From IMG/VR virus record IMGVR_UViG_3300028559_001111, positions 1-24,965 of that record: 24,965 bases of DNA; one strand, given 5' to 3'. Below, piece after piece: positions 2,264 to 24,835 of this stretch. Under the pieces are notes generated by a model. The model did no database searches, had not been told where the DNA came from, and saw only the letters and a list, made by a program, of their open reading frames with translations. Within the stretch, counting starts at the first letter, position 1. Each line of letters starts with the position of its first letter. The position numbers and the translations under genes were made by a program. Source of the DNA: a virus.

Positions 2264-4776
2264 TGGCATACCAATCAATAGCATATGATAAAAAATCCGG
2301 CGTGATGCACGTTTGGGATGATGAGTTAGGACATCAAAAGTTTCCTTTCAGAGCATACGCATATTTACCTGATGATAATGGCAAATATAAATCATTAGAC
2401 GGAACACGATTAAAACGTGTTGAAGGAAATCATAAAGATAATCCAACAGCATATGAATCGGATATCAATGAAGAAATGCGAACTCTTATTGATTTATACT
2501 ATGAATCAGATTTAGCATCAAGAGGTCATAGAGATTTCTTTTTTGATATAGAAACAGAACGAGATGAAGATGGATATTCAACACCAGAAGAGGCTCGAGC
2601 TAGAATTACATCTATTGCATATTATGACAAAGCAGGACAAGATCGCCGAGTATTAGTATTAGATGAAGAACGCCGGCTATATGGCACTGGTTTTAAATGT
2701 GATGAATATGAAGTTGAAATATTCAATTCAGAAGCAGGAATGTTAACACGATTTATTAATGCATTTGCAGAAATACAACCCACTGTAATTTCCGGATGGA
2801 ACACTGATAATTATGATATTCCATATTTGATTAACCGAATCAAAAAAATATTAGGTGCACAAGCAATTAAAAAATTATCACCAGCTGGTATTGTTGAATG
2901 GAGTCGAAGTCGAGAACGATATAAAATATTTGGTGTATCTAGTTTAGATTACTTGACACTTTATAAAAAATTTACATATACTGAACTTCCTAATTACCGA
3001 TTAGATACAGTTGCTAAATTTGAATTAGATCGAGGTAAAATTGAATATGATGGCGATTTGAATCATTTATTTGCAACGGATATTCATAAATTTGTTGAAT
3101 ATAACATGGTCGATGTTAATTTAGTTTATGATTTAGATGTGAAGCTTCAATTAATACCATTAGCTCGTACAATTTGTCATAAAGGCCACGTTCCGTATGA
3201 AGATGTATATTATGCATCAAAATATTTGGATGGTGCCGCTGTTGTTGATTTGAAACGCAATGGATTAGTTGCACCAAATAAACGATTCCGATTTATTGAG
3301 GATGAAACGGAAGCTGGTGAATTGGCAGGAGCATATGTAATGCCTCCGGTTCCTGGTTTATATAAATGGATATATGACTTAGATTTAACGTCACTATATC
3401 CTAGTATCATTATGAGCTTGAATATTTCACCAGAAACTAAAATTGGTGTAATTAAAAATTGGGAGGAAGAATGCCTATTAAGCAATACTGCTACACAAGT
3501 TACATTTGTAGACGGTACATATGTGCAAGATATAAAAACTTGGCTGCAAGACAATGCATATACGGTTGCCAGTAACGGAGCAGTATATCGTACGGATATT
3601 AAAGGATTCTTACCTGTCATTCTAGAAAAATGGTTTGAGGAACGGGTTGAGTTTAAAGATAAACGAGATGAGTATGAAGTAGGTTCTGAAAATTATAAAT
3701 TTTATGATGCATTGCAGTTAACCCAAAAAGTATTGCTCAATTCATTTTATGGGGTATTAGGACTCAAAACATTCCGTTTCCATGATATGGATAATGCAGG
3801 TGCAATTACAGCAACAGGCCAAAGTGTAATTAAATTTTCTGCAAAGGTTATTAATGCACATTATGCAAAAGAAACCGGAAAAGATCATTTTATTAATGCA
3901 ACGGGTATGAAAGCCGAGTTTGCATTCTACACAGATACAGATTCAACTTTTTGTAGTAGTTTACCATTAATACAAGCAAGATATCCAAATTTTGATGAAA
4001 CTGATGAACAATTTATGATTGATAGAACCAACGAAATTGCATCAGAAGTTCAGAAAAAAGTTAACGCAATGTATGATCAATATGCAGTTGTATTTCATAA
4101 TACCGAAACACACCGTTGGCAAATTAAACAAGAATACATTGCAAAATCTGGTTTATGGATTGCAAAGAAACGATATACACAATGGGTTATTTTCAAAGAA
4201 GGAAAACCTACCGATAAACTTGACGTTAAAGGATTAGATGCTGTTAGATCTAGTTTCCCAACAGATTTTAAAAAAATAATGAAAGAAACTATTTGGCATA
4301 TACTTAAAGAGCGCAATAAACCAGATACTACTGATATGATTCATAAATTCAAATCTGGATTGAAAGATTCCGAAGTAGTTAATGTGATGAAAAACTCTGG
4401 AGTGAAAGAAATATCAAAATACACCAAGAAACGTAAACCATTTTCTAGCTATAGATCTGGAACTCCTGCTCATGTAAAATCTGCAATTAATTACAATGAT
4501 TTGTTGACAATGCACGGGATTCGAGATGTAACTCCGATACAAAACGGAGAAAAAGTAAAATGGGCATACTTAGCAGATAATCCATTTGGATTTGATACAA
4601 TGGCCCTTCGAGGATATCAAGATCCACCACAAATAATAGAATTTGTCGCTCAATACATTGATAGAAATAAAATCTTTCAAAGAGAACTTCAAAATAAACT
4701 TGATGATTTCTATTCAGCAATGAATTGGGGTAAGTTTCCAGAAAATAATAATGCAAATAAATTTTTTAAGTTTTAA
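2263..4776 (+). CDS. Family B DNA polymerase with proofreading exonuclease (T4 gp43-like)
   Basis: An 837-aa replicative polymerase. The exonuclease sites are ExoI FFFDIETE (D95, E97), ExoII SGWNTDNYDIPYL (D185) and ExoIII YNMVDVNLVYD (D284). The polymerase sites are motif A YDLDLTSLYPS (catalytic D374), motif B KVLLNSFYG (489-497) and motif C YTDTDS (D558, D560). All catalytic residues are present, so both activities should be intact. It is slightly shorter than T4 gp43 (about 900 aa). The C-terminus, NNNANKFFKF, resembles the sliding-clamp-binding tail of T4/RB69 polymerases, with its aromatic 'FxxFxF' end. The start shares a base with the preceding stop, and the next gene starts inside its stop. 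It acts with the clamp and clamp-loader genes at 8894-11849. Confidence 0.97.
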   Translation: MAYQSIAYDKKSGVMHVWDDELGHQKFPFRAYAYLPDDNGKYKSLDGTRLKRVEGNHKDNPTAYESDINEEMRTLIDLYYESDLASRGHRDFFFDIETERDEDGYSTPEEARARITSIAYYDKAGQDRRVLVLDEERRLYGTGFKCDEYEVEIFNSEAGMLTRFINAFAEIQPTVISGWNTDNYDIPYLINRIKKILGAQAIKKLSPAGIVEWSRSRERYKIFGVSSLDYLTLYKKFTYTELPNYRLDTVAKFELDRGKIEYDGDLNHLFATDIHKFVEYNMVDVNLVYDLDVKLQLIPLARTICHKGHVPYEDVYYASKYLDGAAVVDLKRNGLVAPNKRFRFIEDETEAGELAGAYVMPPVPGLYKWIYDLDLTSLYPSIIMSLNISPETKIGVIKNWEEECLLSNTATQVTFVDGTYVQDIKTWLQDNAYTVASNGAVYRTDIKGFLPVILEKWFEERVEFKDKRDEYEVGSENYKFYDALQLTQKVLLNSFYGVLGLKTFRFHDMDNAGAITATGQSVIKFSAKVINAHYAKETGKDHFINATGMKAEFAFYTDTDSTFCSSLPLIQARYPNFDETDEQFMIDRTNEIASEVQKKVNAMYDQYAVVFHNTETHRWQIKQEYIAKSGLWIAKKRYTQWVIFKEGKPTDKLDVKGLDAVRSSFPTDFKKIMKETIWHILKERNKPDTTDMIHKFKSGLKDSEVVNVMKNSGVKEISKYTKKRKPFSSYRSGTPAHVKSAINYNDLLTMHGIRDVTPIQNGEKVKWAYLADNPFGFDTMALRGYQDPPQIIEFVAQYIDRNKIFQRELQNKLDDFYSAMNWGKFPENNNANKFFKF

Positions 4777-5837: not shown

Positions 5838-6443
5838 ATGAATAAACAAGTAATTAAAATGCGTCCAGAAGGTAGTTTTTTACACGAAGGATTTTTAGAA
5901 TTTTGTAATTTTTTAAAACAACGCAATGTAAAGCGTATTTTAGAAATTGGCTCATATGCCGGCGAATCAATCAATATGTTTAAACAAGTATTAGGCGATG
6001 ACGTTGTAATTGTAGCTATTGATCCATGGGATACATTGGATGATGAAAATGATTTAATACATGAAAATGATTTTCATCAAGTTGAGCGAGTATATAATGA
6101 AGCAGTTTTATCCCATCAACGCATAGTAAAATGTAAGCTATACAGTCAAGACATTGCTGATATGTTTGCAGATGGATATTTTGATTGTTTATATGTTGAT
6201 GGTTTGCATACTTATAACCAAGTTAAAATTGATTTGGAATTATATGTATCAAAAGTAAAAGAAAATGGTATTATTTCTGGGCATGACTATGAAATTGAAT
6301 ATACAGACAAACAACGAGCAGAAATTTTAAATTTTGAAGGAAACGATCGTTTAAGAAAAGCTGTGTCAAAAGCAGTTAATGAAGTAGTAGGTATTCCAGA
6401 ATTCACATTTGGTGATAGTAGTTGGGCATTAATAAAACAATAA
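5838..6443 (+). CDS. Class I SAM-dependent methyltransferase (Methyltransf_24-like)
   Basis: A 201-aa protein from the ATG at 5838. A TTG at 5823 would add five residues but lies inside the preceding gene. SAM motif I is ILEIGSYAGES (E36-G43). D62 in VVIVAIDPWD would contact the SAM ribose. FDCLYVDGLHTYNQVKIDLELY (D121, H124) and NGIISGHDY (D150) are typical of the Methyltransf_24 / class I O-methyltransferase group, which methylates sugars and small molecules. There is no DNA-methylase DPPY or PCQ motif, so the substrate is more likely a sugar or hydroxyl than an adenine or cytosine ring. It lies between the QueD-like gene and a glycosyltransferase, so the acceptor could be a hypermodified base or its sugar; that is inference. 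Confidence 0.8.
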   Translation: MNKQVIKMRPEGSFLHEGFLEFCNFLKQRNVKRILEIGSYAGESINMFKQVLGDDVVIVAIDPWDTLDDENDLIHENDFHQVERVYNEAVLSHQRIVKCKLYSQDIADMFADGYFDCLYVDGLHTYNQVKIDLELYVSKVKENGIISGHDYEIEYTDKQRAEILNFEGNDRLRKAVSKAVNEVVGIPEFTFGDSSWALIKQ

Positions 6444-6445
6444 AT

Positions 6446-7624
6446 ATGAGAAGAAACGAAGTAAGAAAAATATTCTATTTTGGGTTAGAGCCACTTAAAG
6501 CTCGTTACACCTATCAGCTTTCAAAAGAATGGATGCCAGCAACCTTTGAACCATATGAACGATGCGGAGCAGTTGAATTTATTGATATTGAAGGAGAATT
6601 TGATGAAGCACAAGAAATAAAAGTTGGTGCTGTGTTAGATGCTATTGGTCGCGGTAAATATAGTTTAACGCAGTGTCAAAACTTTTTGCAAAAAATATAT
6701 CAAGATGAAGTTCAATCTGGTGATGTTATTTTCTTGCAAGATTATTGGACTCCCGGCCTAGATGCAATTTGGTATGCTTTGGATCTTTATGGTATTGATG
6801 TTAAAGTATATTCAATGCTTCATGCACAAAGTGTTGATGAATATGATTTTACATATCCAATGGCACCATGGATGCGTCATTATGAATTAGGTCTAGATAA
6901 CCGAATGTCTGGTATTTTTGTTGGTAGCACAATACATAAACAGCAACTTCGCGAAGCTGGGTTTAAATCACCAATACACGTTGTATCATTGCCAATACAT
7001 AAACAAGCAACTTTAGATAAACTGCCAAATTATCAATTGGTTGATAAAAAAGATGTAATTGTGTATTCATCTCGATTAGACAAAGAAAAGAATCCATTTT
7101 TTATGTTAGAGGTAGCAGAAAGATTCTTAGCTGAAAATGAAATTTTTGAATGGCACGTAACCACATCAGGAAAGGAATTTCGAAGTATGTTGCCCGGAGT
7201 AATTGATGCAATGCAATCATTGTCTAAACGACAGCCTAGATTCCGATTGTTATCAGGATTAACAAAAGAAGAATATTACATGGAATTGGCTACATGTAGA
7301 ATTCAATTTAATACATCATTACAAGATTATGTTTCTTGGACTGTGATTGAAGCAACCGCATTTGGAGCTGACATTGTATATCCTAATTTCCGGAGTTTTC
7401 CTGAATTCATTGAACCATCTAGACTCTATATACCTTTTGACGTAGAAAGTGCATTACATGTAATGAAAACTGCATTATCTAACCCAAAGACGCATCCGCA
7501 TATTGTTGATTTATCTGACTTAGGTCGACAAATGGAAGCATTCATAATAATCAACGATGTTAATCAGGAATTAAACATATGGCACGAATCGCAATATTGC
7601 AAACATTTATTACAAGGACAATAA
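6446..7624 (+). CDS. GT4-type (GT-B fold) glycosyltransferase in the replication/modification cluster
   Basis: A 392-aa protein from the ATG at 6446, three bases after the previous stop; a TTG at 6422 would overlap that gene. The C-terminal half has the GT4 pattern: DVIVYSSRLDKEKNPFFMLEVAERF (R210 region, the nucleotide-sugar phosphate clamp), then DYVSWTVIEATAFGADIVYPNFRSFPEF, which aligns with the family's donor-binding 'E-x7-E' segment and holds E302. The N-terminal half is a second Rossmann-like domain (GDVIFLQDYW, IFVGSTIHKQQL). Cytoplasmic, no membrane segment. Its place between a methyltransferase and a guanine-transglycosylase-like enzyme, far from the sugar block at 16205 onward, raises the possibility that it glucosylates modified DNA, as T4 does by unrelated enzymes. 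A small-molecule or protein acceptor is equally open. Confidence 0.75.
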   Translation: MRRNEVRKIFYFGLEPLKARYTYQLSKEWMPATFEPYERCGAVEFIDIEGEFDEAQEIKVGAVLDAIGRGKYSLTQCQNFLQKIYQDEVQSGDVIFLQDYWTPGLDAIWYALDLYGIDVKVYSMLHAQSVDEYDFTYPMAPWMRHYELGLDNRMSGIFVGSTIHKQQLREAGFKSPIHVVSLPIHKQATLDKLPNYQLVDKKDVIVYSSRLDKEKNPFFMLEVAERFLAENEIFEWHVTTSGKEFRSMLPGVIDAMQSLSKRQPRFRLLSGLTKEEYYMELATCRIQFNTSLQDYVSWTVIEATAFGADIVYPNFRSFPEFIEPSRLYIPFDVESALHVMKTALSNPKTHPHIVDLSDLGRQMEAFIIINDVNQELNIWHESQYCKHLLQGQ

Positions 7625-7625
7625 A

Positions 7626-8879
7626 ATGAATAAAAATTTTATATATTTTCCGTCATTATCCGCAGGATCAATGGTATCTGCATTTAAAAAGGATACTAAA
7701 TTTACTGATGGTACCACAATGCGATTTTTCTCAAAAGAATATCCAGAAGAATGGAGACATCCATATTTCTTAATTACAGCAGGACATCATTATAAAAAAA
7801 TGGATTTTCGCAATGACATTGGATTAGATGATGATGTATTCGTATTTGGTGATTCTGGCGGATTCCAAATAGCAACCGGTGCATTGAAATGGGATAGCAC
7901 TATTCGAGAAAAGATTTTTCATTGGTTAGAAGCTAATTCAAATGTTGCAGCAAATCTAGATATTCCGCCTAGAGTTCAATTTGAAAATCGTTTTCAGGAA
8001 GCAATGGATATTTCATTTGATAACTTTAAATGGTTTGAAAAAAATCAATCTGGTAAAACTAAATTTTTAAATGTATTACAAGGAACATATAATGAAGAAT
8101 ACATTACATGGTATAATCGATTCAAAGATTTTGATTTTAATGGTTGGTGTATTGGCGGACCTAGAAAATTAGTTAATTTTATGTTCTCAATGGCATTGTT
8201 ATTAAAAGAACGAGAATTTGAAAAGAAACATGTACAATATGTCCATTTATTAGGTATATCAAAGATATCAGATTTCTTTATACTGTCTACTTTGCAAAAA
8301 TTACTCAATGAGTTAACAGGCGGTCGAGTACAATTATCAACAGATTCATCATCGCCAGGTCAATATCCTGTATATGGAACGTATTTGCATTCAACTAATT
8401 ATAAAACGCAGTCATTTACTGAATTATATTTTCCAAAGAATGCGGAATATCGAAGAAAAACTCATATCAAACAAGGCAAAGACGGTGCAATTTCTATTGA
8501 TAAAACAAAACATGTACCATGTAGCTTGGATTGCCCTGCTTGTAGCGATTTTACCTATGAATATTTAGGAGGCCAGACCACATCAGGTTTAGATCGATAT
8601 ACTCAAGAAGGAATGCCTAGAATGGTAATTCATAATACACATTTGTATGTTGATATGGCCAAAGACATTGATAAATTAGTTAGTAGTCACGCTGAATTGT
8701 TAGAAACAGCAGTACCATCAGATTTATTTACGGTTATTATATCATTGTATGAAATGTTTGAAGATCCATCAAATGCAATGTGGGTATATGAAAAATATAT
8801 CAAAACATATAAAAAATTCGGAGGAGATAGTATATCAACTACCGATGTTGAAAATTTCAATAAATTCTTTAAATTTTAA
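7626..8879 (+). CDS. tRNA-guanine transglycosylase-like enzyme, DpdA-type DNA 7-deazaguanine transglycosylase
   Basis: A 417-aa TIM-barrel TGT homologue. The base-binding motif is FGDSGGFQIATG (D76-Q81, the TGT general-acid Asp). N-x-D-I-P (D112), VLQGTY (Q152-G153) and WCIGGPR (G177-G178) follow in the TGT order. STDSSSPGQYPVYG supplies a candidate nucleophile D240. A zinc site is formed by C299, C303, C306 and H336 in VIHN, like the CxCxxC...HN site of TGT but with C-x3-C. Cellular TGTs swap guanine for a 7-deazaguanine in tRNA; phage DpdA relatives do so in DNA. DNA is favoured here by the setting between polymerase and clamp, the QueD-like gene, and a C-terminal FNKFFKF that copies the polymerase tail. 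The DNA substrate is inferred. Confidence 0.8.
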   Translation: MNKNFIYFPSLSAGSMVSAFKKDTKFTDGTTMRFFSKEYPEEWRHPYFLITAGHHYKKMDFRNDIGLDDDVFVFGDSGGFQIATGALKWDSTIREKIFHWLEANSNVAANLDIPPRVQFENRFQEAMDISFDNFKWFEKNQSGKTKFLNVLQGTYNEEYITWYNRFKDFDFNGWCIGGPRKLVNFMFSMALLLKEREFEKKHVQYVHLLGISKISDFFILSTLQKLLNELTGGRVQLSTDSSSPGQYPVYGTYLHSTNYKTQSFTELYFPKNAEYRRKTHIKQGKDGAISIDKTKHVPCSLDCPACSDFTYEYLGGQTTSGLDRYTQEGMPRMVIHNTHLYVDMAKDIDKLVSSHAELLETAVPSDLFTVIISLYEMFEDPSNAMWVYEKYIKTYKKFGGDSISTTDVENFNKFFKF

Positions 8880-8893
8880 AATAGGTTATAAAA

Positions 8894-9604
8894 ATGGAAA
8901 AAAGTAAATTACAAGCATTCATCAGTAGATATTATTTAGCTGGTAATTGCGAGGCAGTTAAGTTAAATGAAAATGCTAACGGTGTTAGTTGTGAATTGAT
9001 TGATATGGATCAAACAGTAGTAGGAAAGATCCAATGGAATACTACTCCGTTTATGAAAGGTGAATTAGGTATTAATCATACCGGTGCATTGATAAAAATG
9101 CTAGGAGCTTTAGGCGAAAATATTAATATTGATGTAAAAGATGCATCTGGTAAGAACTATGCAATGACAATTTCTGAAGGAAGCACAAAAGCAACTTTTA
9201 TGTTAGCAGATACCACAGTTATTCCAGCAGTTCCAACTATTAATGCAGAACCTGATTATCTGATACAAATTCCAGTAAATGATGAATTCATTAGCAAATT
9301 TATCAAAGCAAAAAATGCATTACCAGACGCAAAAAACTTTGCGGTGCAAGTACAAGGTGGAATTATTAAATTTATTATTAACTATACCACAGTTAATTCA
9401 GATAATATTTCTTTTGAAGTAGGAAATACTCCAGGTAAAGATATGGAACCGGTTTGTTTCTCGGCAGATAAATTGAGAGAAGTATTGATTTCAAATCGGG
9501 GTGATGCTGGTCAATTACATATTTCACCAGATGGTTTAGCTCGTATTGATTTTGTAGGAACAGATTTTGAATCTAGCTATTGGTTGGTGATGCTCCAGAA
9601 TTAA
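8894..9604 (+). CDS. Sliding clamp, T4 gp45-like DNA polymerase processivity factor
   Basis: A 236-aa protein, close to T4 gp45 (228 aa), whose trimer encircles DNA. The two halves have the alternating strand pattern of clamp domains: an N-terminal half to about 110, then PDYLIQIPVNDEFISKFIKAKNAL beginning the second half, and a closing ESSYWLVML strand as in gp45. Basic residues in the helices would face DNA. Sequence identity to gp45 is low, and the call leans on length, pattern, and the adjacent gp44- and gp62-like genes. The start has a weak AGG-type RBS and follows the transglycosylase by 14 bases. Expected partners are the polymerase (NKFFKF tail) and probably the transglycosylase. In T4 the clamp also activates late transcription. 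Confidence 0.85.
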   Translation: MEKSKLQAFISRYYLAGNCEAVKLNENANGVSCELIDMDQTVVGKIQWNTTPFMKGELGINHTGALIKMLGALGENINIDVKDASGKNYAMTISEGSTKATFMLADTTVIPAVPTINAEPDYLIQIPVNDEFISKFIKAKNALPDAKNFAVQVQGGIIKFIINYTTVNSDNISFEVGNTPGKDMEPVCFSADKLREVLISNRGDAGQLHISPDGLARIDFVGTDFESSYWLVMLQN

Positions 9605-10042: not shown

Positions 10043-10969
10043 ATGTTTGGAAAACAAGAAAATACACTTTGGGTTGAATCATTTAGACCCGATACATTAG
10101 AAGGATACATAGGAAATGAACACATTATTGAAAAAGTTAAAATATTCATTGCTAATGGCGATGTTCCGCATCTATTATTTTATGGATCAGCTGGTACAGG
10201 TAAAACGACGTTGGCGAAAATAATTGCTAATTCAGTAGATGCTGATTTAATGTATATTAATGCATCAGATGAAAACTCAGTAGATGCCGTACGAGATAAG
10301 ATTAAGCGATATGCATCCACAGTTGGATTCAAAAGATGGAAAATCATTATTTTGGATGAAGCAGATTATTTAACACCAAATGCTCAAGCAGCTCTTCGCA
10401 ATTTGATGGAGACATATAGCAAAACAACACGTTTTATTTTAACATGTAACTATGTTGAAAAGATTATTGATCCAATTCAATCACGTTGTCAAACATTTGC
10501 TATTACTCCTCCAAATAAAACGGATGTAGCAAAAAGATTAGTAGCAGTACTTGAAGAAAAAAGTGTTCAATACGATATCAAGGATATTGCCGCAATTATC
10601 AATGCATCATATCCGGATATTAGACGAGCACTTAATGCAGCACAAGCATCTGTAGTTAACGGCAAATTGCAACTAGACAAATCAAGTGCAATTCAAGCCA
10701 ACTATATGTCTGAAGTTTTGGAAATGCTTAAGAACGCAAAAGACAAAAAGGCAACATTCACAAAAATACGACAATGCATTGCAGATAGCAAAGTTAAAGA
10801 CTTTACTCCACTGTATACATTTTTATATGACAATTTAGATGAATTTGCTCACGGACATGTAGCACCTTGCATTTTGATCATAGCAGAATCGCAATTCAAG
10901 GAGGCGAGCGTGGTGGATAAGGAAATCAACATAATGGCAATGTTTGTAAATTTATTAGGAGAAATATGA
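10043..10969 (+). CDS. AAA+ clamp loader subunit (T4 gp44-like)
   Basis: A 308-aa AAA+ ATPase. An N-terminal LWVESFRPDTLEGYIG is the standard clamp-loader opening. Walker A is GSAGTGKTT (48-56), Walker B IIILDEADYL (D105, E106), sensor 1 ILTCNY, and the arginine finger lies in the SRC motif (S147-R148-C149). A helical lid and a C-terminal collar domain follow. In T4 four gp44 subunits plus one gp62 open the gp45 ring and place it on primed DNA. Length is close to T4 gp44 (319 aa). The stop overlaps the next start (ATGA at 10966-10969). With the clamp at 8894 and the gp62-like gene at 11400, the set is complete. Confidence 0.95.
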   Translation: MFGKQENTLWVESFRPDTLEGYIGNEHIIEKVKIFIANGDVPHLLFYGSAGTGKTTLAKIIANSVDADLMYINASDENSVDAVRDKIKRYASTVGFKRWKIIILDEADYLTPNAQAALRNLMETYSKTTRFILTCNYVEKIIDPIQSRCQTFAITPPNKTDVAKRLVAVLEEKSVQYDIKDIAAIINASYPDIRRALNAAQASVVNGKLQLDKSSAIQANYMSEVLEMLKNAKDKKATFTKIRQCIADSKVKDFTPLYTFLYDNLDEFAHGHVAPCILIIAESQFKEASVVDKEINIMAMFVNLLGEI

Positions 10970-11399: not shown

Positions 11400-11849
11400 A
11401 TGGCAGAAGAAAAGAAAGGTGCAACAATTTTTGATTTCATCGACGGATTAACACACAAAAAGAAAGAATGGAATAAATGGTCTGAAACAGATCAAAAAAA
11501 GTTTTCTGTTTACATTACGAATCGTTGGTTGAGTATGAGAATGGAGTTTACGGAACTAGTTAATGAATTTCAAACATATACTATAGGACTTTTACGCCCA
11601 CAGGAAACATATCGTTTATATCATGAATTTCTGCCAGCATCTAAAGGATTTGCAAAATATATAAAAGGCAAATCTGAGGATAAGTATGAAAAAGCATTAG
11701 TTGAACAGATAGCCGAACATTATCAAGTTGCAAAATCAGAAGCTGCTGATTATTTAGATTTAATGGATAAAATGCAATGTGAACGTATTTTAACAATGTA
11801 CGGTTACAGTGAAGGCGACAAAAAGAAACTATTAAAGGGAATAAAATGA
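11400..11849 (+). CDS. Clamp loader small subunit (T4 gp62-like)
   Basis: A 149-aa, mostly helical protein. It opens with ATIFDFIDGLTHKKKEWNKWSETDQKKFSVYITNRWLSM and contains LPASKGFAKYIKGK, a pattern I associate with gp62-like clamp-loader proteins of T4-like phages such as cyanophages. T4 gp62 itself is longer (187 aa) and very diverged. In T4 one gp62 joins four gp44 to form the loader and lacks ATPase motifs, as this protein does. Position two genes after the gp44-like subunit supports the call. The stop overlaps the start of the next small ORF (ATGA at 11846-11849). Confidence 0.75.
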   Translation: MAEEKKGATIFDFIDGLTHKKKEWNKWSETDQKKFSVYITNRWLSMRMEFTELVNEFQTYTIGLLRPQETYRLYHEFLPASKGFAKYIKGKSEDKYEKALVEQIAEHYQVAKSEAADYLDLMDKMQCERILTMYGYSEGDKKKLLKGIK

Positions 11850-16204: not shown

Positions 16205-17695
16205 ATGGAGTTACCAAAGTTACAAAAAATCAACCCTAACAAGCCGAAGAAAAAGAAAATTTTATTGTTATCAGATGATTTTCGATTACCATCGGGAATT
16301 GGAACAATAAGCAAAGAAATCATTTTTAATACCGTTAAGCATTATGATTGGATACAATTAGGTGCGGCACTACAACATCCAGACGCTGGTAACGCATTTG
16401 ATATATCTGCAGACATTGCGCGAGAAACAGGTGTAGAAGATGCATCAGTTAAATTGATTGCATGGAACGGCTATGGAGATAGAAACATTTTATTTTCAAT
16501 ACTCCAACAAGAACGTCCAGATGCAATATTTCATTTTACAGATCCTAGATATTGGACTTGGTTGTATGCATTAGAACATGAAATTAAAACTACATATGCA
16601 ACGCCAATTATTTATTATTCTATTTGGGATGATTTACCATATCCAATGTGGAACGCACCTTTTTACGGTAGTTGTGACTTGATTATGGGAATTAGTAAGC
16701 AATCTGATAATATCCACAGAGAAGTGCTTAAACAGAATGGATTTAAAGTTGTAGATTATGATGAATCAGATGAACTTTGTGCTGAAGTTAGTGCAGACGA
16801 AATCATTACAGGCTTTGTTCCACACGGATTAAATCATAACACATTCAAACCATTAGCCGCAACAGATCCACAATACGTTGATATGTATGCAAAAATTAAA
16901 CAAGCTAATGATGTTGATTTTTTAGTATTTTGGAATAATAGAAATATTAGAAGAAAACAACCAGGTGATGTTATTTTAGCATTCAAACATTTTGTTAATA
17001 GTTTACCTGAAGCAAAACGTTCACGAGTTGCACTTTTAATGCATACGCAGGTAGTAGATGATAATGGAACTGATTTACGTGCCATATGGAAAACATTAGC
17101 GCCGGAGTGTAAAGTGTTATTTTCAGAAGCAAAGATTAATACACAAGAACTTAACGCAATGTATAATGTTGCAGATGTGGTAGTTAATATTGCTAGCAAC
17201 GAAGGATGGGGACTAAGTTCCACTGAAGCAATATTGGCAGGAACACCAATCGTTAACAATGTTACCGGAGGATTACAAGACCAATGCGGGTTTACGGATG
17301 AAAATGGGGAATGGATTAGATTCAACAATGAATTTGCAACTAATCACACCGGTAAATATAAAAATCATGGCATTTGGGTAAAACCAGTATTTCCAAGTAA
17401 CCGTTCACTGCAAGGTTCACCAGCAACTCCATATATCTTTGATGACCGAGTAAATTTTGAAGATGTAGCTGACGCATTTCGATATTGGTATGATATGGAT
17501 ACAATTGCGCGCAAAGCGGCTGGAGAAGAAGGTCGAGAATGGGCATTAGCAAATGGATTAACTGCAGAACAAATGGGTAACAAAATGATTTCAATGATGG
17601 ATTACTTATTTGAAGCAAAACCAATTGCAAGAAAGCGTTATACATTAACACAAGTTACAGAAACAAAATACGAAAAAACAGGAATAGTAGAATGA
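16205..17695 (+). CDS. GT4-family glycosyltransferase, 496 aa
   Basis: A GT-B fold enzyme. The N-terminal domain begins KKKILLLSDDFRLPSGIGTISKEI, where the GIGT loop contacts the acceptor side. The C-terminal domain begins at about 240 with FLVFWNNRNIRRKQPGDVILAF. The donor-binding signature NEGWGLSSTEAILAGTPIV gives E333 and E341, the E-x7-E pair of GT4 enzymes. It would move a sugar from a nucleotide donor with retention of configuration. No membrane segment. A shared octet-like LPKLQK occurs at its N-terminus and at the C-terminus of the next glycosyltransferase. It opens the sugar block. The acceptor, whether host surface glycan, virion protein or DNA, cannot be read from the sequence. 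Confidence 0.88.
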   Translation: MELPKLQKINPNKPKKKKILLLSDDFRLPSGIGTISKEIIFNTVKHYDWIQLGAALQHPDAGNAFDISADIARETGVEDASVKLIAWNGYGDRNILFSILQQERPDAIFHFTDPRYWTWLYALEHEIKTTYATPIIYYSIWDDLPYPMWNAPFYGSCDLIMGISKQSDNIHREVLKQNGFKVVDYDESDELCAEVSADEIITGFVPHGLNHNTFKPLAATDPQYVDMYAKIKQANDVDFLVFWNNRNIRRKQPGDVILAFKHFVNSLPEAKRSRVALLMHTQVVDDNGTDLRAIWKTLAPECKVLFSEAKINTQELNAMYNVADVVVNIASNEGWGLSSTEAILAGTPIVNNVTGGLQDQCGFTDENGEWIRFNNEFATNHTGKYKNHGIWVKPVFPSNRSLQGSPATPYIFDDRVNFEDVADAFRYWYDMDTIARKAAGEEGREWALANGLTAEQMGNKMISMMDYLFEAKPIARKRYTLTQVTETKYEKTGIVE

Positions 17696-17773
17696 GAATA
17701 ATTATAATCTAATACGAATATGGTCAGCTGAAATTCAAAATTTTAATATTAATAAACTAAAAAAATATACATT

Positions 17774-19024
17774 ATGAACAAAAGAACAGTAGTGGTATCT
17801 AGTCCGGTAGCAACTCAGTCGGGATACGGCCACCACGCTCGGGAAGTAATTAAACAATTCATAGATAAACGAGGAGCGGAATGGGACATCAAATTGCTTT
17901 CAATGCCATGGGGTCATACACCATTTACCTTTCCAATTCCAATGGATTGGCAACGCAGAATTATTCCACTTCCATTAACAGCTCAACCAGACATTTGGGT
18001 ACAAATAACAGTTCCAAATGAATTTCAGCCGGTAGGTAAATATAATATCGGCGTAACAGCTGGCACGGAAGGAGATGTTTGTCCCGCAGATTGGATTAAT
18101 AAAATCAATCAAATGCAAGTGGTAATTGTACCTAGTGAATTTACTAAATCAGTATTTACAGAAACTGCAAAACGCAATAATTTACCGATAACAACAAATA
18201 TTCAAGTTATCCCAGAATACTTTGACGAAACGCAATACAATAATAAAACAGTAACCACAGCTGTTGCTGGATTAGATGATATCAAAGAATCAGATACATT
18301 TTTAAGTGTAGGACATTGGTTGCAAGGTCAAGTTGGAGAAGATCGTAAAAATATCGGAGGAATGATTCATTGTTTCTTTAATACATTTAAAAATAAAAAA
18401 TCAACTCCAGCATTGCTACTTAAAACAAGCGGAGCAACGTATTCAGTAACGGATCGATTTGAAATCAAAGACAAAATAACACAAATTAAAAACATGTTTC
18501 CAGCAACAGATAAATTGCCTAACATATACTTGTTACATGGTGATTTAACCACAGCAGAAATGAATGCGTTATACAATCATACAAAAGTTAAGGCTATGAT
18601 ATCGTTTACAAAAGCAGAAGGATTTGGACGACCATTATTAGAATTTTCTAGTACTGGTAAACCTATTATTGCCCCACATTATTCAGGACAAGCTGATTTC
18701 TTAAAGAAAGATTTCATATGTGCTATACCTGGTCAATTAACTACAATACATCCTTCAGCACAAAATGAATTTTTAATTGCTGACGCAAAATGGTTTACTC
18801 CAGATTACGGGTATGCTGGCAAAATGATGCAAGAAGTACTTGCAAATTATAAAGCATGGTTAACATTAGGAAAACGGCAACGTTATTTTGCAATTACTTC
18901 ATTTACAGAAGAAGCTGTTAGTTCGATATATGATCGAGCATTGGAAATTATAGATGCCGGCGTTTCTAAAATACCAAAAGCTATTGAATTGAAATTGCCT
19001 AAATTACAAAAGGTTGGAAATTAA
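17774..19024 (+). CDS. GT4-family glycosyltransferase, 416 aa
   Basis: A second GT-B enzyme. The N-terminal domain starts VVVSSPVATQSGYGHHAREVIKQF, with a SGYG acceptor loop. The C-terminal domain carries TFLSVGHWLQGQVGEDRKNIGGMI and the signature KAEGFGRPLLEFSSTGKPIIAP with E282 and E290. The GEDRKN segment supplies the basic residues that hold the donor phosphates. A 78-base AT-rich gap separates it from the previous gene. There is no Shine-Dalgarno, but TATACATT lies just ahead of the ATG. It probably works with the preceding transferase on one glycan. Its end, KLPKLQKVGN, repeats the LPKLQK found at the start of the preceding protein. Confidence 0.88.
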   Translation: MNKRTVVVSSPVATQSGYGHHAREVIKQFIDKRGAEWDIKLLSMPWGHTPFTFPIPMDWQRRIIPLPLTAQPDIWVQITVPNEFQPVGKYNIGVTAGTEGDVCPADWINKINQMQVVIVPSEFTKSVFTETAKRNNLPITTNIQVIPEYFDETQYNNKTVTTAVAGLDDIKESDTFLSVGHWLQGQVGEDRKNIGGMIHCFFNTFKNKKSTPALLLKTSGATYSVTDRFEIKDKITQIKNMFPATDKLPNIYLLHGDLTTAEMNALYNHTKVKAMISFTKAEGFGRPLLEFSSTGKPIIAPHYSGQADFLKKDFICAIPGQLTTIHPSAQNEFLIADAKWFTPDYGYAGKMMQEVLANYKAWLTLGKRQRYFAITSFTEEAVSSIYDRALEIIDAGVSKIPKAIELKLPKLQKVGN

Positions 19025-19030
19025 CAATTA

Positions 19031-19054
19031 AATATTTATTATAAATAAAACAAT
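19031..19054 (+). promoter_or_regulatory. Candidate T4-type late promoter (TATAAATA)
   Basis: TATAAATA at 19040-19047 is an exact match to the T4 late promoter core, in one of the few intergenic gaps. In T4 initiation follows about 6-7 bases after this octamer, which here would fall at or just before the ATG at 19055 and leave no leader. The match could be chance in AT-rich DNA, but it occurs in a gap where no other start signal is present. Confidence 0.35.
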
Positions 19055-19681
19055 ATGAAAATAAGTTACGCGATTACGGTATGTAATGAGTTCGTTGAAA
19101 TTCAAAGATTAATTACACGATTGTTAAAAACAAAAAGACCGCAAGATAGCATTGTGGTTTTGTACGACGATGCAAATGGAGATCCTGAGATTGAAAACTA
19201 TTTGCGTTCACATTCTATTAACGGAGAATTTACGTGGCATAAAGGTAAGTTTGATGGTGATTTTGCAACATGGAAAAATCGTTTAAAATCATTATGTACT
19301 GGCGATTACATTGTATTCTTAGATGCAGATGAAATGGTTACTGATTATTTTATGCGAATTTTACCGGATATTTTAACTATAAATACATCAGCTGACATGA
19401 TTCGAGTACCACGCGTTAATCGAGTTAATGGAATCACCGATGCGCACATTGAAAAATGGGGTTGGAGAGTTGATATGCGTAAACGCATCAATTATCCGGA
19501 TTATCAATCTAGAATTTGTAAAAACATTCCAGAAATTACGTGGACTGGACGAGTGCACGAAACATTAACCGGATTTCAATTAGAAGCAGTACTTCCAGCA
19601 GATATTGAAGAGTTTGCATTGATTCACGTTAAAGATATTGAAAAACAAGAACGTCAAAACGAATATTACGAGACATTATGA
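19055..19681 (+). CDS. GT2-family glycosyltransferase
   Basis: A 208-aa GT-A fold enzyme. The opening ISYAITVCNEFVEIQRLITRLL is the usual GT2 start, and the metal/donor-binding DxD is in YIVFLDADEMV (D90-A91-D92). A conserved ITWTGRVHETLTG near the C-terminus is common in this group (WW.xxxHE-type), where His-Glu helps the acceptor site. It is somewhat short for the family. It would add a sugar with inversion. The stop overlaps the next start by four bases. It follows two GT4 enzymes and probably acts on the same glycan. Confidence 0.85.
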   Translation: MKISYAITVCNEFVEIQRLITRLLKTKRPQDSIVVLYDDANGDPEIENYLRSHSINGEFTWHKGKFDGDFATWKNRLKSLCTGDYIVFLDADEMVTDYFMRILPDILTINTSADMIRVPRVNRVNGITDAHIEKWGWRVDMRKRINYPDYQSRICKNIPEITWTGRVHETLTGFQLEAVLPADIEEFALIHVKDIEKQERQNEYYETL

Positions 19682-20274
19682 TTATAGATTTAAAACAACG
19701 AGTGAATGAATTAACTAACACATCATCTGATATTAATGAACATTTTCCAGCTATTATAAAGTATGGTTCTCAATGCAATCATATTACAGAAATGGGAGTT
19801 CGAGGTATTATATCTACATGGGGTTGGTTAGCAACAAATCCTAAAAAATTAGTTGCATATGATATTCAACATCCAAGTACTTGGGGAGGATCGTTAATAG
19901 ATGTAGAAGACACAGCAAATCACATTGGAACTAAATTTGAATTTAATTTAGCTAATGTATTAGATGTAGTTATCGAAGAAACTGATTTATTATTTATCGA
20001 CACTTGGCATTCTTATAAACAACTAACAGCTGAATTAAAATTGCATGCGTCTAACGTTAACAAATATATTTGTTTCCATGACACAACATCATATGCAACA
20101 GTTGATGAAAACAGTTATGAAATATGGGGGGATGAATGGAAAGCTGAAGGTGTTGGAATTTGGAAAGCAATTGAAGAATTTTTAGAAAATAATAAAGAAT
20201 GGTCTTTAGAAGAAAGATTCATGAATAATAACGGATTTACAGTTATAAAAAGAAAAGAAAAAAATGAATTATAA
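19678..20274 (+). CDS. Class I SAM methyltransferase-like protein
   Basis: A 198-aa Rossmann protein. HITEMGVRGIISTWGWL is motif I with a GVRG glycine loop, KLVAYDIQHP has the ribose-contact Asp, and LLFIDTWHSYKQLTAELKLHASNVNKYICFHDT matches the Methyltransf_24 / cephalosporin-hydroxylase-like pattern seen also in the gene at 5838. It may O-methylate a sugar of the glycan built by its neighbours. Motif I departs from the usual GxGxG, so the activity should be treated with some caution. Overlaps both neighbours (4 and 11 bases). Confidence 0.75.
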   Translation: MIIDLKQRVNELTNTSSDINEHFPAIIKYGSQCNHITEMGVRGIISTWGWLATNPKKLVAYDIQHPSTWGGSLIDVEDTANHIGTKFEFNLANVLDVVIEETDLLFIDTWHSYKQLTAELKLHASNVNKYICFHDTTSYATVDENSYEIWGDEWKAEGVGIWKAIEEFLENNKEWSLEERFMNNNGFTVIKRKEKNEL

Positions 20275-20917
20275 TGATTTAATTGCAGCTAATGTTACCA
20301 TGGTGCTGCCACATTGTTTTGAAACTATTAACAGACATAAGCAAATTATATCTAAACTTAAAGGTGATGTAATTGAATGTGGCGTTTGGCGTGGTGGATT
20401 TTCAATATTTTTAGCAAAAACATTTCCAAAGAAACATATATGGGTATCAGATTCATTTGCAGGATTTCAACCAATAACTAATGCAAATTATTCATACTTA
20501 AATGAGCGGCATCAACCAAATTATGATGTATCTGCTACACTTGATTCAGTAAAAGCAAATTTTAAACAGTTTGATATTAAAGATTCGCAAGTTACATTTT
20601 TGCCAGGATTTGTTAATGATACATTACCAACCTGCGGAATAACAGATATATGTTTGTTGCGAATTGACGTAGATGCATATTCTGCTACATTGGAAGTATT
20701 AACTGAATTGTATGATAAAGTTGTACCTGGCGGTTATATTGTATTTGATGATGCATGCTTATATGAAACTATGGATGCAATTAAAGTATTTTTTAAAGAT
20801 AAAAATATAGAGCCGTATTTATTGCATCCAGAAACAGATCAAAAATTATTAATTGATTTAGATGCTCCGAGTGAAGATAGTAAATATCCAACCGGATGTT
20901 ATATTATAAAACAATAG
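20264..20917 (+). CDS. TylF/MycF-family sugar O-methyltransferase
   Basis: A 217-aa protein matching the TylF group of macrocin-type O-methyltransferases. The marks are DVIECGVWRGGFSIFLAK (E38-G45, SAM loop), VSDSFAGFQP (D63), LLRIDVDAYSATLEVLTELYDKVVPGGYIVFDDA (D135, D137 and D162-D163, the metal-binding acids). These enzymes methylate sugar hydroxyls with Mg2+. All key acids are present. It starts 11 bases inside the preceding methyltransferase gene. Two methyltransferases side by side suggest two positions of a sugar or a capping step that ends chain growth. Confidence 0.88.
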   Translation: MNYNDLIAANVTMVLPHCFETINRHKQIISKLKGDVIECGVWRGGFSIFLAKTFPKKHIWVSDSFAGFQPITNANYSYLNERHQPNYDVSATLDSVKANFKQFDIKDSQVTFLPGFVNDTLPTCGITDICLLRIDVDAYSATLEVLTELYDKVVPGGYIVFDDACLYETMDAIKVFFKDKNIEPYLLHPETDQKLLIDLDAPSEDSKYPTGCYIIKQ

Positions 20918-20920
20918 TTT

Positions 20921-21559
20921 ATGGCAAACGGAATATACAAAATAACAGAAGATTTTGAAAAAGCACTAAGTGATTATACTGGAGCTCCATATGTAATTAC
21001 AGTAGATAATCAATCAAATGCATTGTTTTTAAGTTTAATGTATGAAAAAGTGTATGGTCTAGAAATAACAATACCTTCTAGAACGTACCCATCGGTCCCA
21101 TGTGAGATTATACATGCGGGAGCAAAAGTTAAGTTTAAAACAACAACTAATAAAACTTTAAAGGGTGCATATCAATTAGCTCCAACAAATGTGTGGGATT
21201 CTGCATTATGTTTTACTGCTGATATGTACAAACCAGGCACTCATATGTGTATATCATTTACTGGGCCTTATAAACATTTTAAGCTTAGTAAAGGTGGCGC
21301 AATATTAACAGACAGTTATGAAGCATACCTATGGTTTAAACGTGCTAGATATAGTGGTAGGCGAGAATGTTCATATCATGACGATCATTTTGATATGTTA
21401 GGATGGAATTTTTATATGATGCCGGAATTAGCAGCGCGCGGTATGTTATTAATGAATCAGTTTTATAATACGGATGGAACTAAAAAACATAATGATGATT
21501 TAGAATTACCATACCCAGATTTATCAAAATTTGAAATATATACTAAAGCAAATAGATAA
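20921..21559 (+). CDS. Compact DegT/DnrJ/EryC1/StrS-like aminotransferase
   Basis: A 212-aa relative of PLP-dependent sugar aminotransferases, which usually have 370-400 aa. Visible marks are FEKALSDYTGAPYVITVDNQSNALFLSL (cofactor phosphate region), ITIPSRTYPSVPCEIIHAGAKVKF, VWDSA (D93, the pyridine-N contact), and SFTGPYKHFKLSKGGAILT, where K118 aligns best with the Schiff-base Lys. GWNFYMMPELAARGM matches the 'GyNxRmxelqAA' helix. About 30 residues before D93 and the whole C-terminal domain are missing. It may be a minimal phage form or a decayed copy. The acetyltransferase next door is the usual partner, giving an acetamido sugar. Its stop overlaps that gene's start. Confidence 0.7.
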   Translation: MANGIYKITEDFEKALSDYTGAPYVITVDNQSNALFLSLMYEKVYGLEITIPSRTYPSVPCEIIHAGAKVKFKTTTNKTLKGAYQLAPTNVWDSALCFTADMYKPGTHMCISFTGPYKHFKLSKGGAILTDSYEAYLWFKRARYSGRRECSYHDDHFDMLGWNFYMMPELAARGMLLMNQFYNTDGTKKHNDDLELPYPDLSKFEIYTKANR

Positions 21560-22137
21560 TGAAGTTAGCATTGTATGGTTATGGAGGACATGCTCGTGAA
21601 GTAGCAGCTCAAATAGACCAAGATATTGAATTTTTTGTTGATGATGAGTATGCTAATAATGTAGCTCAACCAATATCAAAATTTAATCCTGCTATCTATT
21701 ATATGATGGTTGCTATTGGGGATAGTAAAGCTAGATTTGATGTGGTTCAAAAGTTACCTAAAGAAACAGTTTATTTTACCTATATTCATCCAACTGCTCT
21801 AATACTAGATGATGATATTAAAATTGGAGAAGGTAGTTTTATTGGTGCATATAGCATTTTAACTACAAATATTAAATTAGGCAAACATTCCATATTAAAT
21901 AGAGCAAATCATATAGGACACGACACAACAATAGGAGATTATTTCAGCGCTATGCCTGGAGCAATAGTATCAGGCAATGTAACAATACATGATTGTGTTT
22001 ATATGGGAACTAATTCATCAATTAAAGAAAAATTAAGCATTCATAGTTTATCTACTATAGGAATGAATTCAGGCGTAGTTAAACATATACAAGAACCGGG
22101 AGTTTACGTAGGTAGTCCTTCCAGAAAAATTAAATAA
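21559..22137 (+). CDS. NeuD/PglD-like sugar O- or N-acetyltransferase
   Basis: A 192-aa protein. The N-terminal Rossmann domain begins LALYGYGGHAREVAAQI, the nucleotide-sugar-binding GxGGHA-E signature. From about residue 85 there is a left-handed beta helix of hexapeptide turns (IKIGEGSFIGAYSILTT, IGHDTTIGDY, VTIHDCVYMGTNSSI), ending YVGSPSRKIK. The His in ANHIGHD is in the place of the PglD catalytic His. The family acetylates UDP-amino sugars or sialic acid with acetyl-CoA. With the DegT-like gene it resembles the PglE-PglD pair. Length is normal, and the gene should be functional. Confidence 0.88.
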   Translation: MKLALYGYGGHAREVAAQIDQDIEFFVDDEYANNVAQPISKFNPAIYYMMVAIGDSKARFDVVQKLPKETVYFTYIHPTALILDDDIKIGEGSFIGAYSILTTNIKLGKHSILNRANHIGHDTTIGDYFSAMPGAIVSGNVTIHDCVYMGTNSSIKEKLSIHSLSTIGMNSGVVKHIQEPGVYVGSPSRKIK

Positions 22138-22811
22138 TGAAACTACATATATTTTATCGACATTATAATATAACAGGAAATGATTTCAAACAACGCCCGG
22201 TTTGGTTTGACTATGAAGCTTGTTTCAAAAATTTATTAGATACTATCAATAATGATGAACGAGTAACATTACATGTTATAATGGATGGATCTATTCAAGA
22301 CAATTGGATCAAATCATATAGTGATCATTTTATAGCACATGAAATACAAGCTGGAAATGATCAAGCATCATTTTTATCTACATATTCATATGCAAACAAT
22401 ATTGATACCGATTTATATTATTTTTTAGAAAATGATTATTTACATGTACATGGTTGGGTTGATAAAGTTTTTGAGTTGTTTTCAACATATCAAGGACTAG
22501 ATTATGTTTCATTGTATGATCATAATGATAAATACTTTTTATCAATGTATGATGATTTAGTATCAAAAATATTCACAACAAACTCACATCATTGGAGAAC
22601 AACACCTAGTACGTGCGGTACTTATATAGTAACTAAAAAAGTATTTAAAGACGATTTTGAAGTACCATTTAGAATACCAGGCGATCATAATAAATTCTTG
22701 TATCTTAATCAAACAAAAGGCCGTGCTGTTATTACTCCAATACCTGGATTAGCAACTCATTGCATGGACGGCTTACTTAGCCCAACAATTAATTGGAAAA
22801 CATTATGCTAG
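22137..22811 (+). CDS. Probable glycosyltransferase-like protein, GT-A type
   Basis: A 224-aa protein with a GT-A look: KLHIFYRHYN start, a strand VTLHVIMDGS, and LYYFLENDYLHVHGW, where E-N-D-Y takes the place of a DxD site followed by the usual Trp-containing helix. STCGTYIVTKKVFKDDF resembles the later acceptor region. It is diverged from GT2, and I cannot name the family. Its last seven bases overlap the ATG of the next transferase. Setting and fold suggest sugar transfer. Confidence 0.6.
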   Translation: MKLHIFYRHYNITGNDFKQRPVWFDYEACFKNLLDTINNDERVTLHVIMDGSIQDNWIKSYSDHFIAHEIQAGNDQASFLSTYSYANNIDTDLYYFLENDYLHVHGWVDKVFELFSTYQGLDYVSLYDHNDKYFLSMYDDLVSKIFTTNSHHWRTTPSTCGTYIVTKKVFKDDFEVPFRIPGDHNKFLYLNQTKGRAVITPIPGLATHCMDGLLSPTINWKTLC

Positions 22812-23530
22812 TATCAACATTAAATTATAACCAACCAGAACTAACCGATAATCTAATTAAACAATTGAATCGAGGTAATGACTTATCTAAACATGAACTA
22901 ATGATATTAGATAATGGTTCTACAAAATCTGTAGCAAAAAGCACAACTCATCGATTAGAAGAAAATTTATTCTTTGGCGGCGGATTAAACGTTATACTAG
23001 AATATTTTTTATCAACCGATCATGAATACTTTGTATTGTTTAACAATGATTTAATCTTCCATGGTCCTCGATTAATTGATAACATGTTACGTGAAATGAA
23101 AGAACATGATTTAGCATTATATTCGCCAGCTATTACAAACACTGGGGCTGATCAGTGCTATTGGAGACAAATGTGGAACTGGGGTACGGGTCAAGTGCGA
23201 CTAGTTCCGTGGATTGATTTTATGTGTTTAGTTATGCGAAGAGACTTAGCTGAATATATAGTAAAATATCCGGACGAATTATTTTTAGGATGGGGGCCAG
23301 ACTTTTATTCTGGGATAAAAGCAGAAGAAGGCGGATTTAAAGTTGGCGTGAGTGATAACATTACATTATCACATCTTGTTAGCCAAACATTTGCAACAGG
23401 CGCTATTGAAATGAAAGAATCAGATTTTTGTTCACAAGCAGATGGGAATATGCATAAATTTTTCTTAAATTCTAAATATAATGATAAATTTATGGAATTT
23501 AGACAAATAGGATCTACATACGAAATATAA
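22805..23530 (+). CDS. GT2-family glycosyltransferase
   Basis: A 241-aa protein from the ATG at 22805; a TTG at 22793 would add four residues. MLVSTLNYNQPELTDNLIKQL is the GT2 opening, LMILDNGSTKS the donor-base strand, and YFVLFNNDLIF carries NND in the DxD place, as in rhamnosyltransferase-like GT2 enzymes. PWIDFMCLVMRRDL and LFLGWGPDFYSGIKAEEGG, with the acidic GPDF...EEGG stretch, fit the acceptor region. It overlaps the preceding gene by seven bases. The next gene starts one base after its stop. Confidence 0.83.
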   Translation: MLVSTLNYNQPELTDNLIKQLNRGNDLSKHELMILDNGSTKSVAKSTTHRLEENLFFGGGLNVILEYFLSTDHEYFVLFNNDLIFHGPRLIDNMLREMKEHDLALYSPAITNTGADQCYWRQMWNWGTGQVRLVPWIDFMCLVMRRDLAEYIVKYPDELFLGWGPDFYSGIKAEEGGFKVGVSDNITLSHLVSQTFATGAIEMKESDFCSQADGNMHKFFLNSKYNDKFMEFRQIGSTYEI

Positions 23531-23531
23531 T

Positions 23532-23975
23532 ATGAAAAATAATAAGTTACTTTGTACAATGCACGTAATGTGGTATGAGAGCCATATGATTAATGAAACA
23601 TTAGATTCTATACAATTGGCAATTGAAAACGCAGAACACGATGTTGAAATTTGGGGTAGCGGAAATCAAATGCGTGAGTTTATTTATGTAGATGATGTAG
23701 CTAGAGCATGTATACATTTAATGAATAATGATTTCACCGGCGCATATAATTGTAGTAGTGAAGTTGAAATAACAATTAATGATTTAGCAAATCTTATTGC
23801 AGAAATATTAGGATTCAATGGAAAAATTAATTATAATATAGATAAACCCGAAGGTCACCTTAGAAAAGGATTTACTTGTAATAAATTGCGTAGCACGGGT
23901 TGGAAACATGTTATTAACTTAAAAGATGGTATTAAATTATCATATGATTGGTATAAAGAAACAATAAACGAATGA
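23532..23975 (+). pseudogene. Chimeric remnant: glycosyltransferase N-terminus fused to C-terminus of GDP-L-fucose synthase
   Basis: A 147-aa ORF made of two unrelated pieces. Residues 1-37 (LLCTMHVMWYESHMINETLDS...) read like the start of a glycosyltransferase. From about residue 38 the sequence is the C-terminal third of GDP-L-fucose synthase (WcaG/Fcl): VEIWGSGNQMREFIYVDDVARA, YNCSSEVEITINDLANLIAEILGF, KPEGHLRKGFTCNKL, GW, and YDWYKE, each aligned with the E. coli protein. The Rossmann domain and catalytic Ser-Tyr-Lys are missing, so it cannot act as that enzyme. The join is near 23640-23650. A deletion between a transferase gene and an fcl gene explains it best. A GDP-mannose dehydratase gene, fcl's usual partner, begins at 24837. 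Confidence 0.75.
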
Positions 23976-24835
23976 TATCATTTACACTTTCAACATTTAA
24001 TACATTAAACTATTTAAAGTTAGCAGTTAAGTCAGTACGCCAAAATAGTTTTTATACAGACGCCCCATTTATTATTCATGCAGAAAATTGCACTGATGGG
24101 ACTAATGAATGGTTATTAGCAAATAAAGACATATATAACTTAGAAGTTTATATTGAAGAAAACGAAACTCCACGTGGTATTGGAGGAGGAATGAATTTTT
24201 GTGCTAGCAAAGTTCGTACTAAATATATCGGATTTTTATCATCAGATTTTTGGATGTCAAATGATTGGGATAAAGCTCTAGTTGATATTTGTGAACAAAA
24301 TGCAAATAAAAATGTATGGGCATTTAGTTATAGAGTTGAACCAGACATATTTAACGATCCAGTTTCGAGACCAGGAGTATTAAAATTAGATGTTGATACA
24401 TTTGGAGAATTTCATCATAACTTTGATAATGAAACATTTGATGAATGGAGTTCTGAATTAAGTTCAATGAATGATGTTGAATATAATATTCCAATGGGCG
24501 TAAGTGGTGTCATTAGTAAACAAGCGTGGGACTATATAGGAGGTAACGATGATAGATTTGCTCCAATGTATTGGGAAGATGCTGACATCTTTATCAGAAT
24601 GATAAATGAAGGGTATGAATTTAAGTTAACAAGCAAGTCAGTTTTATATCACTTTGCATCTAGAACAAGTAGATTTCCAGACGATAACTTAAATGTGCGT
24701 CCATCTCACTTAGCAGCATACGAACAACGATCACTTGAACGTTTTATTAATAAATATGGTAAATTACCACAACATGGTCCAAATGGAGAATATCTTCCAA
24801 TGCCTATAATTGATGGATCATCAAACAGAATATAA
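23972..24835 (+). CDS. GT2-family glycosyltransferase
   Basis: A 287-aa GT-A enzyme. The opening [25 protein letters not shown], the strand [16 protein letters not shown], and [26 protein letters not shown] match the family. SSDF takes the DxD position. [31 protein letters not shown] has the conserved E-D-x-D and closing His of GT2 enzymes. Its ATG overlaps the end of the chimeric ORF (ATGA). It is full length and probably works in the same glycan pathway. One base separates its stop from the next gene's ATG. Confidence 0.87.

Follow-up and report, generated by a model that had tools for sequence, protein, structure and literature searches.

The eukaryotic enzyme DNMT1, which methylates cytosine, is held at replicating DNA by a PIP box for PCNA located in its N-terminal part. 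In T4, gp43, gp55 and gp33 bind the gp45 clamp through C-termini that can be exchanged for one another (PMC2988020); gp43 ends in SLDFLFG and gp55 in PSLDFLYEAND. The C-terminal tail of the RB69 polymerase was co-crystallised in the clamp pocket, and this tail is the clamp-binding element in T4/RB69 (PMC3012046). The T4 alpha-glucosyltransferase also binds gp45, as reported by Sommer 2004, cited in PMC13216743, and the pull-down was repeated in 2026; clamp binding was found not to be the main cause of the dominance of alpha-glucosylation (PMC13216743, 2026). Phage DpdA and DpdA2 proteins and the 7UI4 structure, with which the enzyme described here can be compared, feature a TGT-family fold, a catalytic Asp pair and 7-deazaguanine genes nearby (PMC6884629).

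The window, that is, the whole stretch of DNA analysed, is a 24,965-base IMG/VR virus fragment (IMGVR_UViG_3300028559_001111) with 35 genes, including those for a family-B polymerase, a predicted DpdA-like enzyme, a sliding clamp and two clamp loader subunits (Table 1). With good confidence, the C-terminal seven residues of the DpdA-like protein can be read as a sliding-clamp docking motif of the T4 gp43-tail or PIP-box type, carried on a short flexible linker.

Table 1. Features of the window and of related contigs, with positions, strand and the evidence used
Feature	Position	Strand	Evidence or remark
Family-B DNA polymerase, T4 gp43 type, 837 aa	2263..4776	+	PHROG 262, E 5.6e-178; Pfam DNA_pol_B
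Polymerase C-terminal tail ANKFFKF, matching the motif	4753..4773	+	Position homologous to T4-type clamp-binding tail
TGT/DpdA-like DNA base-exchange enzyme (predicted), 417 aa	7626..8879, stop included	+	Pfam TGT sub-threshold, AF2 fold, Asp pair
Asp76 of DSGGFQ, counterpart of TGT catalytic Asp	7851..7853	+	Alignment
Asp240 of TDSSS, counterpart of TGT nucleophile	8343..8345	+	Alignment
Possible TGT-like zinc site, Cys299-x3-Cys303-x2-Cys306 ... His336	8520..8633	+	Sequence
Linker, residues 402-410, from last helix to tail; predicted disordered along with tail	8829..8855	+	AF2 model
C-terminal docking motif (putative) FNKFFKF, residues 411-417, consensus PHI-x-x-[FY]-F-x-[FL]	8856..8876	+	Conservation in clades 1, 2
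Sliding clamp, 236 aa	8894..9604	+	PHROG 223 processivity factor, E 3e-6; close homologue's model matches PCNAs
Clamp loader large subunit, gp44 type	10043..10969	+	PHROG 168, E 6.4e-85
Clamp loader small subunit, gp62 type	11400..11849	+	Pfam Phage_clamp_A, E 6.8e-7; PHROG 225, E 3e-17
PHROG 12062 members	L302:2322-3041, L297:6543-7271, L116:4615-5361		PA5oct one annotated 'structural protein'
Head-cluster protein beside prohead protease	G001 71828-72229; G002 66085-66558; G003 48192-48617		Ends KKYYDVG; NRYFRVG; SKYFDVQ

The Pfam TGT model matched the DpdA-like protein with an E value of 1.7e-4 and 21.2 bits, which is under the curated cut-off of 26.3 bits, and none of the PADLOC models matched it. 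Because phage DpdA families are divergent, the low score reflects a limit of the HMM rather than a defining property of the protein. The AlphaFold (AF2) model, built with 24 homologues and reaching a mean pLDDT of only 65, points to a TGT-type fold, the best Foldseek matches being the DNA preQ0 insertase DpdA 7UI4 (E 7e-5), the T. maritima TGT 2ASH and the TGT 4JBR (TM 0.37-0.54). Asp76 and Asp240, which we take, by analogy with TGTs, to be the catalytic Asp and the nucleophile, were found in all ten aligned proteins, including distant homologues. The residues of the possible zinc site were invariant in clade 1 (DpdA proteins 69-97% identical) and missing in its sister clade 2, in clade 3 of large phages, in PA5oct and in the DpdA2 of nt-1, all of which retained the Asp pair. 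The predicted reaction of the enzyme is the replacement of guanine in DNA by a 7-deazaguanine base. The clamp gene is the next gene, as the sequence-only reading had stated, and starts at 8894, 14 bases past the DpdA-like ORF; the model of a close relative's clamp is a predicted PCNA-fold ring subunit, with PCNA matches down to E 4.5e-12.

Reading of the ORF ends confirmed that the polymerase (...ENNNANKFFKF, with NKFFKF at codons 4756-4773) and the DpdA-like protein (...DVENFNKFFKF, with NKFFKF at 8859-8876) finish in the same six residues, although the full FNKFFKF, which the sequence-only reading had placed at 8859, begins at 8856. The codons differ at two of the six positions (AAT AAA TTT TTT AAG TTT in the polymerase; AAT AAA TTC TTT AAA TTT in DpdA), and therefore the match lies at the protein level rather than in a copied DNA end; recent copying of the polymerase end as DNA was ruled out on this ground. 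The polymerase and the DpdA-like gene are the only two of the 35 window genes with an [FYLIM]F-x-[FLIMV] end, and the number of gene pairs sharing six identical last residues expected by chance is ~3e-5 (35 genes, C-terminal composition). The looser motif by itself occurs in ~1.3% of random ends and is thus not rare, so that conservation carries the argument. In the DpdA model, residues 402-417 have pLDDT values <50 straight after the well-modelled helix 381-398 (~91), suggesting a flexible end outside the folded domain, as expected for a tag. Exact identity of the six residues was restricted to the window strain and near-identical relatives; in L003 (91%), the closest relative in which the two genes occur together, the polymerase ends in KFFSFGK and DpdA in FNKFFKF. 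What had been described as an identical peptide is accordingly a shared consensus, with the exact identity a local coincidence on top of it.

Homologues were gathered by whole-protein search and not by the tail. All 121 complete clade 1 DpdA ends carried F-x-x-[FY]-F-[KT]-F, apart from a final Leu in one and one extra residue in two. The motif is under constraint, in that F411, [FY]414 and F415 are fixed with synonymous Phe codon changes while positions 409, 410, 412 and 413 vary. Polymerases of the window's relatives end in KFF[SNTAK]F, either at that point or with G, GK or GN added. Clade 2, found via a 49%-identical protein, kept PHI-x-x-[FY]-F in 67/67 DpdA proteins (for example VFNQFFE, VMNKFFE, VISQFFEIG, VISKYFNVG and VITQFFDLGQ), with the linker STRDLVNNEV in place of the DSISTTDAEN of clade 1, and its polymerases mostly end in LGKFF[AST]F (e.g. 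LGKFFAF). A search for close homologues without the tail, which the sequence-only reading had proposed as a check, therefore yielded none in either clade. The DpdA gene is immediately upstream of the clamp gene in every clade 1 and clade 2 locus containing both. In Mel-JY01, whose polymerase is 46% identical to that of the window, and in two related contigs, no DpdA was found at this place and the clamp directly follows the polymerase; these polymerases end in SKFFNFK or RFFSFT/RFFSFI. The acidic residues of the T4 form of the motif were not found in the window tails, which carry Lys, whereas clades 2 and 3 have Glu/Asp.

We favour clamp docking above all because unrelated phages repeat the match between polymerase and DpdA tails, each with its own version of the tail. 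The polymerase of Vibrio phage 2.275.O (MG592671) ends in AANNTDLFDW and its DpdA homologue in VLNNNDLFGW. That of PA5oct ends in HFDSLFGW, and SFNSLFDV occupies the aligned place in its DpdA homologue. Clade 3 polymerases end in FNSLFEF, and [FY]xx[LF]F stands at the aligned place in 80/80 DpdA proteins (61 distinct). In both clade 3 and PA5oct an acidic extension follows the DpdA motif, which is thus not strictly C-terminal. Among complete clade 3 loci, those with the polymerase end FNSFFEF had FF in DpdA in 6/6 cases, compared with 7/72 of the others (Fisher 7e-6, uncorrected for shared ancestry). When the own polymerase/DpdA pairs of five lineages were set against all re-pairings, 2/120 scored as high, the observed one included, PA5oct and clade 3 being the near-exchangeable pair. 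Judged by their letters, the window protein, clades 1-3, 2.275.O and PA5oct all appear to carry a PHI-x-x-aromatic/Leu-Phe motif like the polymerase tail. Clade 3, PA5oct and 2.275.O have a PHROG 12062 protein encoded between polymerase and DpdA; because the 2.275.O member has processivity-factor matches as well (E 6.7e-5), this protein probably serves these large phages as their sliding clamp. The DpdA2 of nt-1, a T4-like phage with a polymerase ending in TITLESFFG that was checked as a T4-like comparison, had no tail, and the match of the Phosso DpdA end to the motif is doubtful. The GR7B and Aura homologues contained internal TLFGK and SLFGA pieces, and no family-B polymerase was found for comparison. 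Scans of viral contigs with the 2.275.O and PA5oct DpdA proteins as queries returned nothing.

Gene ends were also scanned in the large contigs of four relatives (101-169 kb, 752 coding-strand genes), where the loose motif was about as frequent as chance (~10 expected) and an FF-x-F end was found in all four contigs only on the polymerase and DpdA. As a caution, a small head-gene-cluster protein, an unlikely clamp rider, has a motif-like end in three of the four contigs (Table 1). The ends of this protein resemble the clade 2 DpdA tail VISKYFNVG. The late sigma factor gp55 (PHROG 234), wanted as an internal positive control, was not found in 8 contigs, which does not prove its absence. At loci where DpdA and clamp are in frame, a tail-linker-clamp read-through with the stop read as Gly was modelled; the clamp folded, while the tail (pLDDT <50) was not placed, the linker being only about six residues long.

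Several other origins of the shared tail were weighed. It could be a structural element of the DpdA subfamily, such as a hydrophobic plug or a dimer contact, with an incidental likeness to the polymerase; the GGDSISTTD stretch before the clade 1 tail, nearly as conserved as the tail itself, would suit this view. We regard it as unlikely, because the tail is predicted to be disordered, the linker changes between clades while the motif stays, and the motif tracks the polymerase's version in other lineages. The sequences alone imply only a common partner, and the phage SSB itself has a loosely similar end (FDDLFNS), so a replisome component other than the clamp, for example SSB, the clamp loader or the helicase, might be bound instead. 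This seems quite improbable given that the co-crystallised polymerase tail of T4/RB69 is a clamp-binding element (PMC3012046) and that the DpdA gene adjoins the clamp gene. The narrow distribution of the exact six-residue identity would fit chance or a recent DNA exchange that gave the transglycosylase gene the 3' end of the polymerase gene, but the motif is old, being shared by clades that are 49% apart, and the pairing recurs with different residues in other lineages, so that we give this origin hardly any credence. The docking tag of the sequence-only reading is thus partly borne out by the conserved tail and by the different but matching polymerase and DpdA tails of unrelated phages, from which we infer clamp binding and, with it, coupling to replication.

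Genes for 7-deazaguanine biosynthesis were found in the relatives; the window begins downstream of these genes and does not contain them. GTP cyclohydrolase I (FolE) and PTPS/QueD were each present in 13/16 contigs of clades 1 and 2, and a QueE-like radical SAM gene was identified by Pfam in G001 and by eye in clade 2 loci; in the relatives the polymerase is closely preceded by these genes. None of the 16 clade 1 and 2 contigs yielded a QueC at threshold while the controls were detected, which makes a CDG-type precursor the simplest guess and the base probably CDG-derived. Phage Bipper was likewise reported to have DpdA, FolE, QueD and QueE without QueC (PMC6884629). A gene of G001 upstream of the polymerase (L088:10468-11034) matches the Thoeris inhibitor Tad3 (Pfam PF25185, E 1.7e-33); lying between folE and queD, it places an anti-defence gene inside the base-modification cluster. 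The 169-kb contig G003 has DpdA sequence at both ends (28-1275 and 168427-169296), suggesting a circular complete or circularly permuted genome.

In the window, a purine-type phosphoribosyltransferase-like gene lies just before the polymerase (1757-2263), its G001 homologue matching Pfam Pribosyltran (E 1.1e-21), and a link to modified-base salvage is conceivable. Between polymerase and DpdA (5838-7624) are one methyltransferase-like and one glycosyltransferase-like gene; the latter keeps this position in the loci of clades 1 and 2 that were inspected, and its substrate might be the modified base or something else. A long row of glycosyltransferase-, methyltransferase-, aminotransferase- and acyltransferase-like genes, judged by eye (16205-24835), looks like a sugar or surface-glycan island.

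We propose that the DpdA tail, on its flexible linker, would give the clamp a peptide of the type that the polymerase of this phage also displays. Once loaded by the gp44/gp62 loader, clamps would hold DpdA on newly made duplex, where it would swap guanine behind the fork for a 7-deazaguanine base. This base would be the product of FolE, QueD and a QueE-like enzyme, whose genes lie just upstream in relatives. Our confidence in such replication-coupled modification is somewhat lower than that in clamp docking.

The T4 alpha-glucosyltransferase-gp45 pair is the closest parallel, as a phage DNA-modifying enzyme on the replicative clamp that is proposed to act with replication, binding being predicted in our case. 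Unlike DpdA, it glycosylates hydroxymethylcytosine and ends in KEQFDIITK, without a polymerase-like tail. The clamp-binding C-termini of T4 resemble the DpdA tail in being short hydrophobic C-terminal motifs on a flexible linker, common to unrelated proteins of one phage (PMC2988020); however, the T4 motifs are acidic (SLDFLFG) and occur on polymerase and transcription factors, whereas the tails of the window's clade are basic and occur on a base-exchange enzyme. In contrast to known DpdA and DpdA2 proteins, including the tailless one of nt-1, the enzyme has a putative clamp-docking tail and no PADLOC match, and QueC was not found in its relatives. DNMT1 is likewise a DNA-modifying enzyme with a PIP-type motif for a PCNA-fold clamp, as predicted here for DpdA, but it is an unrelated eukaryotic enzyme that methylates cytosine and has its motif in the N-terminal part. 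The sequence-only reading knew of no described clamp-tethered DNA transglycosylase, and no paper linking DpdA to a clamp was found in the open-access literature searched; the T4 alpha-glucosyltransferase is nonetheless a precedent, so that DNA-modifying phage enzymes bound to a clamp are a kind already known. The 2026 work on it also cautions that modification levels need not be governed by clamp binding (PMC13216743).

The docking reading is testable by a seven-residue deletion, and since the isolated phages PA5oct and Vibrio phage 2.275.O share the pairing, testing is possible without the uncultured window phage. Searching uncultured phages for gene ends that match the polymerase tail could also reveal their clamp clients. 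Two questions, how DpdA-type enzymes come to modify phage rather than host DNA and at what time they do so, would find a simple answer in a tail that docks on the clamp: the enzyme would modify whatever DNA carries the phage clamp. By a modest preference, we lean towards the view that in several large phage lineages DpdA is a dedicated replisome client, whose tail to the clamp evolves in step with the polymerase tail, and which would put a 7-deazaguanine, probably CDG-derived, on nascent DNA, with the pathway genes kept in the replisome cluster.
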